Below are positions 1 to 8,183 of a stretch of 40,413 bases of DNA, piece after piece. A program made the translations under genes and the position numbers. Within the stretch, counting starts at the first letter, position 1; every line of letters begins with the position of its first letter. This DNA comes from Sulfurimonas indica. GTDB lineage: Bacteria > Campylobacterota > Campylobacteria > Campylobacterales > Sulfurimonadaceae. The DNA is taken from positions 1 through 40,413 of the forward strand of contig NZ_SDID01000010.1 in assembly GCF_009192995.1 (NCBI RefSeq), read 5' to 3'. A model generated the notes under the pieces. That model saw only the letters and a list, made by a program, of their open reading frames with translations. It was not told the DNA's origin and did not search any database.

Positions 1-852
1 CGCTGTTACTGTTGCATCATCTACAGGCGTTACTGTGATATTTACAGTTGCCGTATCTGTACCGCCGTTGCCATCACTAATAGAGTAAATGATTGTATCG
101 CTGCCATTGAAGTCTTGATTTGGTGTGTATGTGATTGTTCCATCATTATTGATCGTCACAGTACCGTTTGCAGCAGTTGCACTTGTCACAATAAGGCTAT
201 CACCATCGACATCAGTATCGTTTCCAAGGACACTAATAGTTACGGCAGTATCTTCATCAGTTGTTGCTGTGTCATCTGCCGCTACCGGGTTGTTATTATT
301 TGGATTATCTATCGGGGTCTCAGTATCTTCTTCTGTATTTGTTAATAGAACAGGAGTTCCATCTATATCCACCCCATTATCAGGAGAATTAAACTGTGCA
401 TCTCTTAAACTACTTTGCACATCAACAAAACCATTATCACGTGCTAGGAAGCTATCTTCTTGGAGGTGCCCTACTACTGCTTCGCTTCCTGCAGCAGTTT
501 CATCATCGATGCTTCCTTCTTTTTCTTTGTCTGTTGCATCATCTTCAGCATATACACCTGTTTTTTCAATTGCTTTGTCTATATTATTTGGAGAGATAAA
601 TTCATCTAGATTGTTGTCTTCGATAAGAGAGAGGTCAAAGATCTGTTTTTCAAGCCCCGTCAGTTCAAGAGCCTGTTCAAGATTCATCATGCCTATTTTT
701 ATATGTGCACTTGGGCTGTTGCCATCTGCACCAAAGACAAGCATATCTTTGCTGATTTTATCTCCAACATGCAATTCTACGATATCACCATGTTCATCTT
801 TGGCATAAAATTTTCCGCTTATCTCTTTGACTGTTCCGATAATTACCTTCAT
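1..852 (-). CDS. Large repeat adhesin, N-terminal 284 residues (LapA/RTX type, cut by window edge)
   Basis: This is the start of a secreted surface adhesin; the frame is open from ATG 852 to base 1, so the C-terminus is missing. Residues 1-75 resemble the retention module of LapA-type adhesins (short beta-rich segment, GD at 30-31). Residues 119-122 read TAAG (487-498), the di-alanine motif cut by LapG-type periplasmic proteases. An acidic linker follows, then from about residue 188 a roughly 95-residue cadherin/Big-like repeat with Ca-binding style DTDVDGD and ending near TVTPVDDA; a second repeat seems to begin at the edge. The start is set by AGGAGAG 6 nt upstream of ATG. It lies directly downstream of its likely type I secretion genes. 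The family role (cell attachment, biofilm) is known for LapA; it is inferred here. Confidence 0.85.
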
Positions 853-892
853 TTCTCTCTCCTAAAATATAGACAATTTCCTAGTTTGTTAG

Positions 893-898
893 ATTATA
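893..898 (-). promoter_or_regulatory. Extended -10 element for the adhesin gene
   Basis: On the minus strand this reads TATAAT preceded by TTGCC, with a predicted start site near 886 and a 5' leader of about 34 nt before the adhesin ATG. The hexamer 17 bp upstream (916-921, TAGTAT) does not resemble a -35 box, which suggests that the promoter depends on an activator. Confidence 0.55.
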
Positions 899-922
899 GG
901 CAAAAAAAGAAAGCAATACTAT

Positions 923-936
923 TGTCCCTAGGGACA
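923..936. promoter_or_regulatory. Perfect 14-bp palindrome, candidate LuxR-type operator
   Basis: TGTCCCTAGGGACA equals its own reverse complement, and the symmetry extends to 20 bp with one mismatched pair. Its centre (929.5) is about 34 bp upstream of the centre of the adhesin -10 box, that is near -43 from the predicted start. This is the usual place for a lux-box-type activator site. It lies between the LuxR-type gene and the adhesin gene. Binding by that regulator is inferred. Confidence 0.5.
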
Positions 937-959
937 GTATGGAAAATGTATTAAAAAAA

Positions 960-1550
960 TTATTTTAAAAGGAGTGCGAGACCGAGTCTGTCTTTTACAT
1001 CAAGCTTTTGATAAGTTGCCTGTGCATGGGCTTTGACAGTTCTTGCTGAAATATCAAGTCGCTCTGCTATCTCATTATAGGTAAGTCCCTCTTTTAAAAG
1101 GAGTGCGACCTCTTTTTCACGTGGCGTTAATTTTTGTAACATGATTTCGTTATTTTTTTCTTCACTCTCCGGAAGTTCTAAAATAAGTTGGGATGTGAGT
1201 TCGGGATAAAGCCAAATCATACCCTCACGCAGAGCATCAAGTGCAGAGAGTATAAAGTGCGGTCGCATCAAAGCATTGCCATATCCAAATGCACCAAACT
1301 TCAGTACTCTTTTTGCTCTGTTTAGCTCAGGTAATCTATCAAGCACAAGAACACGGTTGTCTCTTTCACGGGATACTTTTAAAAATTTTTCACAATCTCT
1401 CTTGCATGATTCATAATCTATGATGATTATGGAGTTTTGTATATCTTCTAATTGATATAACTCATCAACACTTTTGTATGTCTCATTTTCAAGAGCTTTT
1501 TCCCAATGGGCTAAGAGATTAATATCATCACTGTAGAGGATTATTGACAT
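960..1550 (-). CDS. LuxR/NarL-type transcriptional regulator with atypical receiver domain
   Basis: This 196-residue regulator has an N-terminal receiver-like fold (about 1-115) and a LuxR helix-turn-helix at about 141-190 (LTPREKEV, then SARTVKAH). Acidic residues D8/D9 and a possible phosphoacceptor D45 are present. The usual Ser/Thr after beta-4 is D71, and the conserved Lys after GAxGY is missing (GAFGYGNAL), so normal phosphorelay control is doubtful. GGAG lies 10 nt before the ATG, and the gene starts 4 nt after the HlyD gene. It is the fifth gene of the secretion operon and directly precedes the adhesin promoter, so it probably controls the adhesin. The WxxR-type c-di-GMP motif of VpsT was not found (WLYPEL at 113-118). 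Confidence 0.85.
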   Translation of the reverse strand: MSIILYSDDINLLAHWEKALENETYKSVDELYQLEDIQNSIIIIDYESCKRDCEKFLKVSRERDNRVLVLDRLPELNRAKRVLKFGAFGYGNALMRPHFILSALDALREGMIWLYPELTSQLILELPESEEKNNEIMLQKLTPREKEVALLLKEGLTYNEIAERLDISARTVKAHAQATYQKLDVKDRLGLALLLK

Positions 1551-1554
1551 TAAT

Positions 1555-2895
1555 TTATCGCTCCGTGAATGTATACTGTTTTGTTTTTAGTATCGGTTTT
1601 AAAATATAGTCAAGCACAGTTTTTTGTCCTGTAATAATATCTACACTTGTTGTCATTCCAGGAATGATTTTGAGTTTTTTCCCATGTCTTCCTATGTAGT
1701 TCTTATCTGTTTTGATACGTACTTCATAAAAGACATTCCCTTCTTCATCTTTAATACTGTCAGGAGAGATAAGAACTACTTTTCCTTCAAGTCCACCATA
1801 AATAGAGAAATCATAAGCGGTAAATTTTACTATGGCGCGTTGCCCAAGATAGATAAATGCGATATCTTTTGGTTTTATCTTCACTTTTACCAGTAAAGTC
1901 TCATCACTTGGAACGATTTCCATGATGTCCTGACCCGGTTTAATTACACCCCCTATTGTATGTACATAAAGTTTTTGTACGATTCCCTTCATCGGAGATT
2001 TTACAATGGTACGGGTTACCTGATCTTCCAAAGCCGTTGAAGTCACGCGCAGGCCTCTTAGCTCTGCGACAGCCTCATTGAGTTTTGTTTTTGCTTCACT
2101 TTGAAAGTTTAACTTTGTCTCTTTGATATTACTTTTTACCTCTTTGATGGCAGACTTGAGCCTTGGAATAGATTTTTTAGCCGCATCATACTTAGAAGCG
2201 ATCTCATTGGCCTCACGCTGCAGTTTTAAAAAGTCGATTTTTGAGCGCACCCCTTTTGCCACCATTGGTTTTGTCATACGAACTTCACGTGATATCATTG
2301 AGTAAGATGATTCTAAATGGTCACGTTGTGAATATGCTTCTGCCAACTCTTGCTTCTTTTGTGCAAGTTTCTCACGCAGTGCATTGAGTTTTGAATTAAG
2401 CTGTTGTTTGTTTGTATTGTAAAGACTTTTTTCATTGTCAATAAATTGTGCCAGTCTCTCTTTGAGGTCAGCAGGAACGATAAAGTCCTGACCGGTAGAC
2501 TCTGCTTTTAAACGTAGTATCTGTGCCTGCAGAGCATCGGCTTTTATCTCGTTTGAACTATAAGAAGAGATAGATTTTTGATTGTCAATTTTGAGAAGTA
2601 CCTGTCCTTTTTCAACGGGGTCACCTTCTTGGACAAGAATCTCCTCAACAATCCCACCTTCAAGATTTTGAATCATCTGGTTTTCACCGCTTGGAATGAC
2701 TTCCCCCTGACCTCTTGCTATCTCATCAATATAGGCAAAATTTGCCCATGTAAGAAACATTATAATTGCTGCAAGCCAAAAATAGAGCACAATACGCAGT
2801 CGTGTCGGAGCAACCTCTAAAATGGCAGCACTCAAAGAGTGCATAAACTCATAATCACGTTTTGAGAGGTTCTTTTTTATCTCTTTTTTAGCCAT
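1555..2895 (-). CDS. HlyD-family type I secretion membrane fusion protein
   Basis: This is the periplasmic adaptor that would join the inner-membrane ABC exporter to the TolC-like outer-membrane channel. The 446-residue protein has a basic cytoplasmic N-terminus, one membrane helix at about 34-55, a lipoyl-like beta segment (GEVIPSGENQMIQNLEGG), a long coiled-coil hairpin (roughly 150-270) and a C-terminal beta-barrel region (IVKSPMKGIVQKL onward). A GTG at 2907 would give a longer product, but ATG 2895 has GGAG 6 nt upstream and is preferred. The ATG overlaps the end of the ABC exporter gene by 8 nt, which indicates translational coupling. The length is normal for LapC/HlyD proteins. Confidence 0.92.
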   Translation of the reverse strand: MAKKEIKKNLSKRDYEFMHSLSAAILEVAPTRLRIVLYFWLAAIIMFLTWANFAYIDEIARGQGEVIPSGENQMIQNLEGGIVEEILVQEGDPVEKGQVLLKIDNQKSISSYSSNEIKADALQAQILRLKAESTGQDFIVPADLKERLAQFIDNEKSLYNTNKQQLNSKLNALREKLAQKKQELAEAYSQRDHLESSYSMISREVRMTKPMVAKGVRSKIDFLKLQREANEIASKYDAAKKSIPRLKSAIKEVKSNIKETKLNFQSEAKTKLNEAVAELRGLRVTSTALEDQVTRTIVKSPMKGIVQKLYVHTIGGVIKPGQDIMEIVPSDETLLVKVKIKPKDIAFIYLGQRAIVKFTAYDFSIYGGLEGKVVLISPDSIKDEEGNVFYEVRIKTDKNYIGRHGKKLKIIPGMTTSVDIITGQKTVLDYILKPILKTKQYTFTER

Positions 2896-5035
2896 TGGAA
2901 GCTCCACTTAGCTGCTTGAGAACCAGCTCTTTTTTATCATCTAGCAGTACTTGGGAATTATGCATGACTATCACTCTATCTACCATATCAAGGAGCGCTA
3001 GTTTTTGCGTAATGATCACGAGAGTCTGGTCTCTTAACTCCACTTTTAGTTTGTCCATCAAACACTTCTCTGTGGTTTGATCCATGGCATTTGTTGGTTC
3101 GTCCATAATCATAATAGAGCTGTCCTGCATTAGTGCACGTGCCACACCTACACTTTGTCTCTGTCCTCCAGAGAGTCCTGCACCACGCTCACCGATTGGC
3201 ATATCATAACCCAATGGATGTGTGCGAACAAACTCTTCAACACCACTGACCTGAGCAGCATAGATAATATCTCCCACATCGGGATGCTGCTCTGATGAGA
3301 CAATATTTTCTTTAATAGTACCTTTAAAAAGATGGATATCCTGCGGTACATAAGAGATAAATTTACGCAGATCTGCCGGGTCAATTTGCGTGATATCGAT
3401 ATCATCGATTAAAATTTTTCCACTTGTTGGCTCATAGAGTTTTAAAATCAATTTTGCAATCGTACTTTTTCCTGAGCCAATACGTCCAATAATGGCCACT
3501 TTCTCTCCGGCCTCTATCACGAAACTCACATTGCTAAGAGCTGGTACTTCTGTACCCGGGTAGTTAAAACTAACATCTTTAAACTCTATTTTTCCTTGAA
3601 ATTTCGGACGTTCTACAAACTCTTTTCCAGCAGGACGTTCCACCTCACGTGAAATGATCTCATTGAGCGTATCATACGCTGTCTTTGCATCAGAATAGTT
3701 TGAAATAAGTGCTGCAGCCTGCCCAATCGGTGCTACTGTTCTTGAAGTCAAAATCACAATTGCAATAAGCCCACCCATTGTAAGTTCAAACTCTTTAATA
3801 AGATAGACTCCAAAAACAACTACAAAGACAGTATTGAGCTGAATAAAAAGATTTGTCACATTTGGAATAGAAGAGGAAAGCAGACGAGACTTCAGGTTTT
3901 TCTCTGCAATCTCACCTGTTGATTCTTCCCACTCCCACTGTTTTTTTCCATTCATACGCATCGTTTTAACCGTCTCGATATTTTGGAGTGTCTCAATCAG
4001 TATGCCGTTTTTCTTTGCACTTGCTTCATGCGATGCTTCGATACTCTCTTGTAAAGGTTTTCGAATGATCAATGAGTAGCTTAAAATTAAAAATATTGTA
4101 ATTATAGGTACTAAAACGAGCAATCCACCAATATAATAGATGACAGCAAGAAAGATAATGGCAAATGGCAGATCTATAACAGCTGTCATCGTTGCTGTTG
4201 TAAAAAAAGAACGAACAGCTTCAAAATCTTTGAGGTTATTGGCAAATGAACCAACTGATGGAGGATATTCTGCCATTTTCAGATCAAGAACTTTTTCAAA
4301 GATAATAGAGGACATAATGATATCACTCTTTTTACCAGCAAGTTCTAAAAGGTATGCTCGAGTAAACTTTAAAAAGAAGTCTAAGATGTAAACAAGAACA
4401 ATCCCAATAGTAAAGACCATTAAGGTCTCTTCTGCGTTGTTGGGAATCACCCTGTCATAAACATTCATCGTAAAGAGCGGTGTTGCCAAAACAAACAGAT
4501 TTATTAAAAAAGATGCGATTAAAACATCACGATAGATTGGAATAGAGAGCTTGAGTGTGCTCCAAAACCAATGTTTTTGTTTGAGTTGCAGTGTACGTGA
4601 GCTTTTTTTATCATACTCAAACTCTTTTTTGAGAATATAAGCAAAGCCAAGGTACTCTTTTTCCAAATCATGAACATTTACCCACTGCTCTAGTCCATCA
4701 CCTTCAGGATAGATAATCTTTGCCTGTGTCTTATCATCATTAAATTTTTCCAATATACAGACATTATCATTACTTAAGAGCAAAATTGCAGGAAGATGCA
4801 AAGAGAGCATATCTTCAATAGAGCGTTTGATGAGGGTTGATTTGAGTCCTGCACGGGCTGCCACACGTGAGAAAAGAGATTTTGAACTATCTTTAGAGAA
4901 AAGCTTTTGAGAATCATGAATAGGAAGACCTGCTAAGAGAGCCTCTTTACTAAAAGGCTTATGAAAGAGCTTAATAAAAAGGACAAAAGTATCTAAGAGT
5001 GTATCTTCATGTACCGTAATCTTATGTTCGTTCAT
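2888..5035 (-). CDS. Type I secretion ABC exporter, LapB-like, with Cys-less C39-like domain
   Basis: This is a 715-residue inner-membrane exporter ATPase that would energise adhesin secretion. Residues 1-130 match a C39-like domain, but the catalytic Cys motif is absent, so it should bind substrate rather than cut a leader. The membrane domain spans about 160-450. The nucleotide-binding domain has Walker A GRIGSGKST (517-525), LSGGQ (621-625) and Walker B with D645/E646. The H-loop, normally ITHR, reads ITQK with Gln at 677, which is unusual. The ATG at 5035 follows the upstream OmpA gene by 15 nt. Domain order and size match LapB/RtxB exporters that serve retained adhesins. Confidence 0.93.
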   Translation of the reverse strand: MNEHKITVHEDTLLDTFVLFIKLFHKPFSKEALLAGLPIHDSQKLFSKDSSKSLFSRVAARAGLKSTLIKRSIEDMLSLHLPAILLLSNDNVCILEKFNDDKTQAKIIYPEGDGLEQWVNVHDLEKEYLGFAYILKKEFEYDKKSSRTLQLKQKHWFWSTLKLSIPIYRDVLIASFLINLFVLATPLFTMNVYDRVIPNNAEETLMVFTIGIVLVYILDFFLKFTRAYLLELAGKKSDIIMSSIIFEKVLDLKMAEYPPSVGSFANNLKDFEAVRSFFTTATMTAVIDLPFAIIFLAVIYYIGGLLVLVPIITIFLILSYSLIIRKPLQESIEASHEASAKKNGILIETLQNIETVKTMRMNGKKQWEWEESTGEIAEKNLKSRLLSSSIPNVTNLFIQLNTVFVVVFGVYLIKEFELTMGGLIAIVILTSRTVAPIGQAAALISNYSDAKTAYDTLNEIISREVERPAGKEFVERPKFQGKIEFKDVSFNYPGTEVPALSNVSFVIEAGEKVAIIGRIGSGKSTIAKLILKLYEPTSGKILIDDIDITQIDPADLRKFISYVPQDIHLFKGTIKENIVSSEQHPDVGDIIYAAQVSGVEEFVRTHPLGYDMPIGERGAGLSGGQRQSVGVARALMQDSSIMIMDEPTNAMDQTTEKCLMDKLKVELRDQTLVIITQKLALLDMVDRVIVMHNSQVLLDDKKELVLKQLSGASNG

Positions 5036-5050
5036 GCTTTTCCTAAACTT

Positions 5051-6169
5051 TTAGTTGAATAACTTTATCTCAATACGACGATTCGCTTTTCGCCCCTCTT
5101 TTGTTCTGTTAGACTCTATCGGATCAAGCTCACCCCGACCTGTTGCTACAATTCTTGACGCATCAATACCCTCCGCAACTAAAGCAGCTTTAACCGCTTG
5201 GGCTCTTTTAATGGAGAGTGCCATATTTGTTACTGCTTTACCTATACTATCCGTATGTCCTATAATTTTTACTTTATAGCCTGGATTCTTTTTCAAAAAC
5301 TCTGCAAATCTTTGCACTTCAGCGTATGAGTTTTTGAGTATTTTATCAGAACCAGTTTTAAAATTTAATTTTAATGTCTGTTTTACTGCACAGCCATGTG
5401 GATCTACATTTACGCCGGCAGGTGTGTTTTCACACTTGTCTTTGTAATCAACAACTCCATCATGGTCACTGTCAAGAGGGCAACCATGTGCATCCACACT
5501 TACACCTTCTGGTGGTGTATCTGGACATCTATCTTTATAGTCTAAAACCCCGTCATGGTCACTGTCAACCGGACATCCATTTTTATCCACTTTTGAGCCA
5601 CGAGGAGTTCCTATACATCTGTCATATCTGTCATACACTCCGTCTCTATCACTGTCAATATCTTCAGGTTTGAGTACATAGACACTCAACATTACACGGT
5701 CTGAGAGTCTGCCACTCTCTTGTATCTCATCGCTAAAGCCCAGTACTTTACCTCTTTTTGAGTATAAAGAGAGTGTTTTTTCATTTACACCACTCTCTGT
5801 AAGTCTGTTTTTCACACTATCAAGATAGAGTTTTGTCTGGTTATCATTACTGCTGTTTATATTACTGTTATATGCTAAATTATTGTCTATTTTACCAACA
5901 TAATAATCATCTGCACGGTAAATATGCCCAACCAATGTTATTTTTAATTTGTATGATTCATTGAGTTCTTTAATTTTTTCAATAGCAGTTTCTAAGGTTT
6001 TTTCAGACTTTTCATCAAGAGTATTCTCTGATGTAAAATGCAGCATTTCAAAACGAATAATCTCTTCAAAGTCATCATCATAGAAATTATCTTCAAGCTC
6101 TTGAGAGATAGAAGCATGCAACAGTGTTGTGATAACAAGCATCAAAAAAAGTTGTACTACATTTTTCAT
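5051..6169 (-). CDS. OmpA-family protein with TSP3 repeats and a degenerate second OmpA-like domain
   Basis: The 372-residue envelope protein starts at ATG 6169 with GGAG 8 nt upstream; an in-frame TTG at 6190 lacks that support and would precede the signal peptide (MKNVVQLFLMLVITTLLHAS). Residues 36-165 look like a decayed OmpA-like domain (GHI instead of GHTD, and a SDRVMLSV end). Three thrombospondin type-3 Ca-binding repeats follow (about 172-262, each with DxDxDGVxDxxDxC). A canonical OmpA peptidoglycan-binding domain ends the protein, with the HTD Asp at 307 and the LSxxRA Arg at 322. It lies 4 nt after the TolC-OmpA gene in the same operon. It probably anchors or stabilises the secretion channel on peptidoglycan; this is inferred. 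Confidence 0.88.
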   Translation of the reverse strand: MKNVVQLFLMLVITTLLHASISQELEDNFYDDDFEEIIRFEMLHFTSENTLDEKSEKTLETAIEKIKELNESYKLKITLVGHIYRADDYYVGKIDNNLAYNSNINSSNDNQTKLYLDSVKNRLTESGVNEKTLSLYSKRGKVLGFSDEIQESGRLSDRVMLSVYVLKPEDIDSDRDGVYDRYDRCIGTPRGSKVDKNGCPVDSDHDGVLDYKDRCPDTPPEGVSVDAHGCPLDSDHDGVVDYKDKCENTPAGVNVDPHGCAVKQTLKLNFKTGSDKILKNSYAEVQRFAEFLKKNPGYKVKIIGHTDSIGKAVTNMALSIKRAQAVKAALVAEGIDASRIVATGRGELDPIESNRTKEGRKANRRIEIKLFN

Positions 6170-6173
6170 CCTG

Positions 6174-8183
6174 CTATCTCCAATCTTCAAGAGTTAACTC
6201 TACTTCAACTCTGCGGTTAATATATCTTCCCTCAGGTGTTTCATTGTCAGCTATAGGTTCTTCCTCACCTCGACCTTCTGTTGTAATTCTATCAGCAGCA
6301 ATACCAAGCTTGACAAGAGCACGTTTCACTGAGTCAGCTCTTCTTTTTGAAAGTTTTTTATTGAGTACAGTATCACCGCGTGAGCTTGTATGCCCTACGA
6401 TATGGATTCTATACTGTTTGTTTTTCTTTGCAAACTCTGCAAACTTTTCAATATTTGCATAGGAGTTTTTATCGATAACATCACTATAGTAGGCAAAATT
6501 AACACCAAGGTTCAGTGAAATCGCACAACCATCTTCATTGACATTGTATCCAAGCGGTGTATTTGGACATTTATCTTTGTAGTCTTTTACACCATCCATA
6601 TCAACATCAACTGCACAGCCATCAGACGATACTTTTGCATTTTTAGGTGTATTTGGACACTTGTCTTTTGAGTTGATAATACCGTCACCATCACTGTCAC
6701 GTGTCATCTTCACACAACCATATGGCATGATATTATTTTCTAAAAGAGAGTTGTCACACAGATCTTCATCATCTGCTATTTTGTCATTATCAACATCATA
6801 TTTTACAGGCAATGTATCTATGACCTGGTCTGCATCACTGTTGATATAAAGATTTACTCTGGCATCAAACTCTTTTGTATCTCCGATAATGGCTAATGGT
6901 AAGAGTCCCATTGCATCAAGTATTCTATACTTAGCAAGTAGATAATCATACTCTGCTTTAATGATTTGCGCACGGGAGTTGATAACATCATTTTGTGCCG
7001 TTAAAAGATCAAGCAAAGAGCGACGTCCTAAATCATACTCTTCTTTATAAAGCTCTAAAGTCTTCTCTGCAAAAACTTTATAATCTCGTAAATCTTTGAG
7101 TTGCAGAGCTATCATCTCATAAGCATTCCAAGACAAGTCAAGCGCTTCAATGACTTGACGTTTCAAGTCTCGTTTTGTCTCAACTTCTTGGTTTATTTTA
7201 CTCACATCTTTTTGCACTGTTGCTCTGTCAGCAAAACCTCTAAAAAGATTATAAGAAAGTACAACACGCGCTTTAAATCTGTCATCGGGCTGATCAAAAG
7301 CATTTGTCTTTTGCACATCATTAAAGTTTTGTGTCACTTCCAAATCGATTTTTGGATAAAACTCTTTTTGGTGCTGCTTCCAAATTGCCTGTGCACCTTT
7401 AATGTTATAACGACTTACCAATAAAGAGGGATTATGATTGATTGCATACTCAGCAGCACGTTCAACAGAGCTTGGCATACTGACATTAAGATCAGGCTTT
7501 TGCATCTCTGCGACGTGAGGCATACGACCAAGAACTCTTCTGAAGTTGTACTCTTTGTCTCTTGTGTTATTTTTTTGTACTGTCAGGTTTGAGCGAGCCA
7601 AAGAGAGTGCTGATTCGATCTTTTTTACTTCAGAATCCGTTGTAAGACCAGAGTCATAGAGGTCTTTTACCTTCTTGAAAATCTCTTCATTTATCTGCAC
7701 ATTTTCACGAGTAGTTTGCAAAAGCTCATATTCACGCAGTACATTCAAGTAGGCATTAGTCATCTTATAGGCGATATCATTGGCTTTTTCTATGTAGTTA
7801 TATGCAGCAGCTAATATTCTTGCCTCTTGATACGAGACTTTGTATGTCGTACCAAAACCATCAAAAAGATTTTGCGTTAGCACTAAAGAAGATTCATAAT
7901 TACCATAACTTTCATCACCTACGGCATGATTCCAACTACTATTAGCACCTTTTAGTAAACCGGCTTTTGTATAACCTAGACTTGCTCTAAAATCTACACT
8001 TGGCAGGTACTCTGCATTTGCAATATTTAAATCTTCTCGTGTAGCTCTATAGTTACGTAATCTCTCTTGAACAACAGGGTTAGTATCCATAACTTCAACA
8101 ACACTCTCTTTAATTGTTAAAGCTGTTAACGTGTGTATGTTTATTAAAGTAAAAAGACCAATAATTATGACTCTTTTAACCAC
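6174..8183 (-). CDS. TolC-family outer-membrane efflux protein fused to TSP3 repeats and an OmpA domain
   Basis: This 669-residue protein starts at GTG 8183, behind AAGGG, with a signal peptide in residues 1-21. Residues 22 to about 430 are a TolC domain (two helical-barrel repeats, including the motif VLSYNLFRGF). Residues 450-550 hold TSP3 Ca-binding repeats with Cys pairs, and 557-669 are an OmpA-like domain. In that domain the usual HTD is HTS (S600) while the Arg of LSxxRA is kept (R615), so peptidoglycan binding may be altered. TolC proteins normally end after the barrel, so the C-terminal half is an addition that closely resembles the next gene. It is the first gene of the adhesin secretion operon and presumably forms the export channel. 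Confidence 0.9.
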   Translation of the reverse strand: MVKRVIIIGLFTLINIHTLTALTIKESVVEVMDTNPVVQERLRNYRATREDLNIANAEYLPSVDFRASLGYTKAGLLKGANSSWNHAVGDESYGNYESSLVLTQNLFDGFGTTYKVSYQEARILAAAYNYIEKANDIAYKMTNAYLNVLREYELLQTTRENVQINEEIFKKVKDLYDSGLTTDSEVKKIESALSLARSNLTVQKNNTRDKEYNFRRVLGRMPHVAEMQKPDLNVSMPSSVERAAEYAINHNPSLLVSRYNIKGAQAIWKQHQKEFYPKIDLEVTQNFNDVQKTNAFDQPDDRFKARVVLSYNLFRGFADRATVQKDVSKINQEVETKRDLKRQVIEALDLSWNAYEMIALQLKDLRDYKVFAEKTLELYKEEYDLGRRSLLDLLTAQNDVINSRAQIIKAEYDYLLAKYRILDAMGLLPLAIIGDTKEFDARVNLYINSDADQVIDTLPVKYDVDNDKIADDEDLCDNSLLENNIMPYGCVKMTRDSDGDGIINSKDKCPNTPKNAKVSSDGCAVDVDMDGVKDYKDKCPNTPLGYNVNEDGCAISLNLGVNFAYYSDVIDKNSYANIEKFAEFAKKNKQYRIHIVGHTSSRGDTVLNKKLSKRRADSVKRALVKLGIAADRITTEGRGEEEPIADNETPEGRYINRRVEVELTLEDWR

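Follow-up and report, generated by a model that had tools for sequence, protein, structure and literature searches.

What does the short palindrome in front of a large adhesin gene of Sulfurimonas indica do, and which protein reads it? The palindrome lies in the window (the whole 40,413-nucleotide stretch of DNA analysed here) between the adhesin gene and a regulator gene, and a preliminary description had taken it for a Lux-box-like site at the activator position of the adhesin promoter. Comparison with relatives supports that view in its main point: we consider it probable that the adjacent NarL/FixJ-type regulator uses the palindrome as its operator, at the activator position, to turn on the adhesin. 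Judged from sequence, the regulator next door very probably binds there. The argument draws on the following features.

923-936, no strand: perfect 14-bp palindrome TGTCCCTAGGGACA, putative core operator in the C/G form at ±4, centre 929.5, conserved in relatives
919-937, minus strand: entire conserved operator (putative), CTGTCCCTAGGGACAATAG as read on the adhesin strand, from the base table of 120 sites
893-898, minus strand: -10 element TATAAT of the adhesin promoter, centre 895.5, read directly
886, minus strand: predicted transcription start, placed from the -10 alone with its last T as -7
859-863, minus strand: ribosome-binding site AGGAG of the adhesin gene, read directly
1-852, minus strand: start of the large adhesin gene, with a LapA-retention-module-like N-terminus and an Ig/cadherin-like repeat, extending past the window edge
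960-1550, minus strand: NarL/FixJ-type regulator, proposed ligand of the operator, with an atypical receiver and a GerE helix-turn-helix
1555-2907, minus strand: type I secretion periplasmic adaptor of the HlyD family (TIGR01843, E 3.7e-127)
2888-5035, minus strand: type I secretion ABC transporter of the LssB subfamily (TIGR03375, 891.8 bits against a cut-off of 693.1)
5051-6190, minus strand: OmpA-domain protein of the secretion operon (PF00691)
6174-8183, minus strand: TolC-family outer-membrane protein with an OmpA domain, the operon's first gene (TIGR01844, PF00691)

Read directly, the palindrome is perfect over its 14 bp, as had been claimed, and its centre lies exactly 34 bp from that of TATAAT; counting the last T of the -10 as -7 puts the centre at -43.5, matching the earlier placement about 43 bp before the start. 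The adhesin start codon ATG follows at 852-850 on the minus strand. The -10 had also been called extended, which we correct: it is not canonical in that sense because the TG sits one base too far away (TGCC-TATAAT, not TGN-TATAAT), and in the base table of 120 sites the relatives do not favour TG where a canonical extended -10 would have it. The promoter does lack a -35, as described. That absence is uninformative in this phylum, for which it is ordinary according to the accessible part of PMC3656092.

The 2.09-Mb genome holds a single exact copy of TGTCCCTAGGGACA, the one at 923-936, and across the whole genome copies with up to three mismatches showed no excess (28 places, the reversed control giving 40). 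Inside the window, matches to the palindrome word numbered 2 against 0.79 expected. By hand calculation, the chance of a perfect 14-bp palindrome within about 100 bp of the local AT-rich DNA is near 1%. Taken alone, without its relatives, the palindrome is thus mildly improbable and only suggestive; it is far beyond chance because it is conserved in relatives.

The regulator gene comes after a complete type I secretion set (TolC-like/OmpA protein, OmpA protein, ABC transporter and HlyD adaptor), whose neighbouring genes overlap or lie at most 15 bp apart, and this upstream operon presumably secretes the window adhesin. The LapA retention module profile NF033682 scored 19.7 to 21.7 bits on the window adhesin, under the cut-off of 50; it matched 18 of 19 adhesin N-terminal fragments with E up to 0.01. 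No copy of the operator motif with at most one mismatch occurs in the 168 bp ahead of the window's secretion operon, so autoregulation of the operon through the motif is unsupported in the window.

We then asked what kind of protein the regulator is. It had been described as LuxR-type. Its GerE helix-turn-helix agrees with that (PF00196, 58.3 bits against a cut-off of 23.5, E 5.7e-16); the remainder is NarL/FixJ-like with an atypical receiver and does not make an autoinducer-binding LuxR. Pfam gave no match to an autoinducer-binding domain in the protein and the model has a receiver fold in its place, so an AHL-type LuxR identity was rejected. No Pfam match to a receiver domain was listed either. 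The AlphaFold2 model (mean pLDDT 95.4) consists of a receiver-like domain and GerE, and its best Foldseek matches were full-length NarL/FixJ-type regulators with E down to 8.6e-10 and TM-scores near 0.5, a value we attribute to a different orientation of the two domains. The leading structural matches were LiaR/VraR, EvgA, NarL, VpsT and RcsB, and sequence likewise groups the protein with VraR/LiaR, NarL, VpsT and RcsB. At the position we equated with the receiver Lys, 98 of 99 clade A-C proteins (clades defined below) have Asn92; at the Asp-like position 45, the window protein has D, as do all 46 of the clade C proteins, and 25 of 31 in clade A have N. The regulator does not show the conserved pair of Asp acceptor and Lys, and with these residues incomplete it is not an ordinary phosphorylated response regulator. 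By analogy with VpsT, our guess is that its input may be c-di-GMP.

To examine conservation, we searched the 228 genomes of the window's family with the regulator protein and found matches in 151. Loci carry L-numbers and genomes G-numbers, the window locus being L035 and the best 30 loci L035-L064; from a separate search L001-L007 were used as well, and L008-L034 (26 Microbulbifer and one Clostridia), matching from residue 117 on only, were not. A clear palindrome stands behind the regulator stop in 27 of the best 30 loci, the window's included, nearly always before an adhesin start. The check proposed in the preliminary description, that the palindrome be kept before adhesins adjoining this regulator, thus came out in its favour. 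Most of these palindromes are followed by an adhesin gene. L046 has a second regulator gene there, and in L060 the ORF that comes next lacks a clear retention module. In the other three of the best 30 loci (L048, L050 and L051), other genes follow the regulator, with neither site nor adhesin.

We also approached the site from the adhesin side, using a profile of 19 adhesin N-termini (A1), which matched 116 of the 228 family genomes. Both regulator and adhesin were found in 109 genomes, the regulator only in 42, the adhesin only in 7 and neither in 70; in G152 and G167 there was no adhesin match among the matches listed. Most of the matched places listed yielded 134 distinct adhesin starts; one of the two frames of L038 was dropped, no start codon having been found, and L242 was too short for the 150-bp counts. 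The motif TTGT[A/C]C-N4-G[T/G]ACAA (at least 10 of 12 positions) occurs within 150 bp before 120 of 133 LapA-retention-module-like adhesin starts. Shuffles reach this score in 1.9% of cases, and upstreams of other ORFs in 15 of 266, several of these being divergent genes that share the adhesin's site. This score is not blind, since the motif was read from part of the sequences and some loci were fetched for carrying it. With the motif masked, the 133 upstreams fell into 103 unlike clusters, 92 of them with the site. The family genomes are related, and conservation counts are not counts of independent events.

Thirteen of the 133 upstreams fell below threshold. Six of these have an obvious gene directly in front (the end of an HlyD gene in L229, L238, L244, L247 and L252, another ORF in L253), so these adhesins probably lack a promoter of their own. 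L188 and L236 reach 9 of 12 positions, L147 and L259 have other palindromes, and in the adhesin upstreams of L179, L182 and L234 no palindrome was visible on reading.

Scanned across the family, the strict C/G pattern TTGTCCNNNNGGACAA showed no excess: hand counts gave 39 sites, spread over 34 genomes, and 37 for the reversed control; about 20 of the 39 are at adhesin starts and the others mostly within genes. The extended-arm pattern TGTMCNNNNGKACAATA gave 146 rows in the 228 genomes against 30, counted by hand, for the reversed control. The 146 rows represent 116 distinct sites, of which 69 stand before one of the 77 adhesin starts compared, 67 of them 64-82 bp from the start and two at 124. 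The remaining 47 sites are elsewhere or before adhesins outside the 77 (for example G111:C104 and G183:C198). In the window genome, TGTMCNNNNGKACAATA has exactly one site, the window's own.

The dyad and its spacing to the -10 are conserved across the 120 sites, with the centre near -43.5 of the predicted start. At 107 of 120 sites TANNNT starts exactly 31 bp from the operator centre, while the second-best offset accounts for 35 of 120; offsets of 31 and 32 bp together cover 114 of 120, where shuffled spacers give 12%. When only the best TATAAT match was taken and ties were shared, 44% fell at 31-32 bp against 6% in shuffles. From the site centre to the start codon the distance is 62-82 bp in 116 of 120. 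The promoter-proximal operator arm (ACAATA) is the longer of the two in the base table, with A at +7 in 99%, A at +8 in 95%, T at +9 in 99% and A at +10 in 85% of the 120 sites.

Two forms of the site emerged. Positions ±3 (C..G) and ±6 (G..C) are identical in all 120 sites, and ±4 is A..T in 83, C..G in 32 and mixed in 5. In a tree of 104 regulators, clade A, the window's, has 31 rows (support 98/90), clade B 22 (100/99), clade C 46 (100/99) and group D five. Sites adjoining clade A regulators are C/G, with mixed sites in L001/L040 and L049, and those adjoining clade B regulators are A/T. Paired by genome, clade A goes with C/G sites and clades B and C with A/T sites, the per-genome counts taking in fetched regulators only. 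C/G sites occur in 13 of the 16 genomes with clade A alone and in two of the 44 with B or C alone; in those two, G045 and G060, only clade B was fetched, and their C/G sites are of the TGTCCGATCGGACA kind, elsewhere paired with the L085/L090 regulators. Clade A is present without a clean C/G adhesin site in G111, G131 and G201; G201 has a second regulator match, outside the fetched set, on the contig of its A/T adhesin. The five group D genomes divide into two with A/T sites only, two with C/G only and one with both.

Eleven genomes combine clade A with B or C, and ten of these hold both site forms. In eight of the ten, each regulator is on the same contig as an adhesin of matching form; for three of the eight the contig is about the whole genome, and the A/T adhesin start lies 2-6 kb from the clade C gene. 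The eleventh dual genome is the window's own, where a second adhesin-like ORF runs toward a contig end. There (G000, contig C50, 118000-136723; L322) a second type I secretion operon has a clade C regulator at its end, and the adhesin-like ORF, which is convergent, rich in repeats and at least 4455 aa long, nearly reaches the contig end, leaving its start and site unreadable. The window genome's second A1 match, L260 (E 3.8e-4), proved unlike an adhesin on reading and was dropped.

Pairing does not depend on adjacency. A related regulator gene ends at most 450 bp in front of 48 of the 120 sites and is absent there from 71, one being unjudged. G199 and G200 carry C/G sites before a total of three further adhesins, which are distant from the clade A regulator (about 0.2 Mb in one of the two genomes, 1.1 Mb in the other) and lack a regulator gene of this kind in front; the adhesin adjoining the clade A regulator in G199 has a mixed site. 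The distant C/G adhesins and the 71 sites therefore require a trans-acting protein. Because clades inherit their site form, independent switches are few, namely clade A, the L085/L090 lineage and other families. A single-residue specificity code was considered and rejected: clades A and B differ at 158, 169, 177 and 178, but clade C and the L085/L090 proteins fit no one rule, and none of the recognition-helix residues by itself accounts for C/G against A/T.

A class-wide set of 397 genomes, family members included, gave A1 matches in 109. Among the 13 non-family loci with readable starts, an A/T-like site was found in L301, L302, L310 and L321, a GTACC(C)-type palindrome in L307, L308, L309 and L311, and a TCACCC-N4-GGGTGA palindrome in L312, L314, L315, L317 and L318; in the eight measured, the start codon is 66-72 bp from the centre. 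Five of the non-family loci have a regulator match. The recognition helix reads NTVKTH[VI]K in L312, L315 and L318 against RTVKAH in the family, and RTVKAHA is kept in L301 and L302, which have A/T-like sites. We give even weight to a broader picture in which Campylobacterota adhesins would be under lineage-wide pseudo-receiver regulators, duplication having produced two insulated circuits in one cell, split by the ±4 pair (TGTCC-N4-GGACA against TGTAC-N4-GTACA), with the site rewritten outside the family (TCACCC-N4-GGGTGA) in step with the recognition helix.

Several loci have unusual arrangements. In L046/L138 (G174), a C/G-like palindrome, TTGTCCTAGTGGGCAA, stands ahead of a second, tandem copy of the regulator gene, which suggests autoregulation there. 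L135 (G046) has the operator twice in tandem before one adhesin, TTGGACCAAGGTACAA and TTGGACCAAAGTACAA, 30 bp apart. An A/T site lies between divergent genes in L243, L245 and L246, about 30 bp from the divergent gene's start codon; in L245 these genes are the adhesin and lapG-lapD, and the site is within the lapG promoter. L234 has a similar site ahead of a similar gene. Several A/T-type adhesins have a divergent neighbour gene for a protein of about 370 aa (L223:316-1434, with similar genes in L193 and L232); the L223 protein had no Pfam match, and the shared site lies at roughly equal distances from the starts of this gene and of the adhesin.

The sequence comparison establishes the site, its fixed geometry to the -10 and its conservation before adhesins, and also that it does not depend on gene order and that form pairs with clade. 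As for what these mean, it is highly likely that the adjacent regulator is the binder, and quite likely that it activates the adhesin rather than represses it. The regulator would be made from the last gene of the upstream type I secretion operon. Its homodimer would bind TGTCC-N4-GGACA, centred at about -43.5, and the promoter-proximal arm would extend to the -35 region. The bound regulator would most likely recruit RNA polymerase to a sigma-70 promoter with a good -10 and no -35, turning on an adhesin that would be secreted by the same operon. The same dimer at -43 could instead block sigma or polymerase, the adhesin being released on a change of state. That the site abuts the -35 region fits repression, as do L243, L245 and L246, where it lies inside the divergent promoter and binding is expected to repress that gene (lapG in L245). 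In the adhesin promoters, however, the centre keeps to about -43.5, clear of the -10, with TANNNT at one offset in 107 of 120. Such a fixed centre is the usual place of polymerase-contacting activators, repressor sites being freer in position, and we regard repression as unlikely.

Another transcription factor might own the operator, the neighbouring regulator gene being a bystander, since the tie between regulator and site comes from sequence and no such gene ends in the 450 bp ahead of 71 of the 120 sites. Against this, site form tracks regulator clade, both forms occur in 10 of 11 dual genomes, regulator and matching-form adhesin share a contig in eight of those ten, the site recurs ahead of the second regulator gene in L046, and in three non-family loci the site and the recognition helix of the adjacent regulator are both changed; a different owner is improbable. 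Still less probable is an intrinsic terminator hairpin of the secretion/regulator operon. The window stretch does fold on the transcribed strand (-7.3 kcal/mol), with a T-rich stretch some bases later, but no terminator was called at 700-1700 and at least five T in the 8 bases behind the arm occur in just 34 of 120 sites. The arms are fixed beyond what pairing needs (±3 and ±6 identical in 120 of 120), and the L245 site sits between divergent genes. With no such regulator gene in front of 71 of 120 sites, L107, L131 and L180 among them, the site is not a terminator of the regulator operon; together with the T-run counts and fixed arms, this refutes termination as the reason for conservation. 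A chance palindrome in AT-rich DNA could claim the lack of genome-wide excess of the word at up to three mismatches, but family-wide conservation at a fixed distance refutes it, and we give it almost no weight.

The reading as an operator of the adjacent regulator invites comparison with known systems. Like the lux box and LuxR of Vibrio fischeri and relatives, the window system has TGT..ACA dyad arms around an N4 centre and a GerE domain in its regulator, and the label Lux-box-like is apt for the architecture (a TGTMC-N4-GKACA dyad centred near -43.5 of the predicted start) and not for the regulator, which is not an autoinducer-binding LuxR. In the part of PMC7585371 available, the lux box is given as 20 nt, 42.5 nt upstream of the start. 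The differences are a receiver-like N-terminus with no autoinducer-binding domain found, an outer base that in the family is mostly T rather than C (C in the window's distal arm), an inner pair that is C/G or A/T, and a target that is the adhesin of a type I secretion locus.

VpsT of Vibrio cholerae and CsgD of enterobacteria share the NarL/FixJ fold and are both among the structural or profile matches of the window regulator; both regulate biofilm matrix, and their receivers are atypical. The NCBIfam CsgD profile, however, scored 46.9 bits on the window regulator against a cut-off of 250. The best NCBIfam profile was NarL, in agreement with solved relatives and fold, yet its 56.5 bits are far under the cut-off of 250, and the receiver Lys position of the window regulator is Asn. 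NarL sites have a 7-2-7 arrangement, which the palindrome spacing of the window operator does not resemble. For the VpsT T-box, the accessible portion of PMC8754643 gives -3 and +3 as key positions, usually C and G, and these are positions invariant in the window-type operator. The T-box is short and degenerate, whereas the window-type operator is longer, strict and at a fixed place before adhesins.

With the Lap system (LapA adhesin, LapG protease and LapD receptor) the locus shares a retention-module-like adhesin and type I secretion, and in one relative, L245, lapG and lapD adjoin the adhesin. In contrast to that system, the regulator gene here ends the secretion operon, and the regulator clade has its own operator form. 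Transcription of such adhesins elsewhere is under VpsR, VpsT and FlrA in V. cholerae, as far as the consulted part of PMC6890996 goes. Our literature search, mostly of papers open without subscription, turned up no paper on how type I secreted adhesins are transcriptionally controlled in Sulfurimonas-like bacteria.

New here are how widely the site occurs across the family and the two paired forms of site and regulator. If the reading is true, the motif would predict, family-wide, which adhesin answers which regulator, and the secretion operon would carry the switch for its likely cargo. The C/G, A/T and CACCC forms would then make a natural series of regulators and operators for studying how recognition-helix specificity changes in NarL/LuxR-type proteins.
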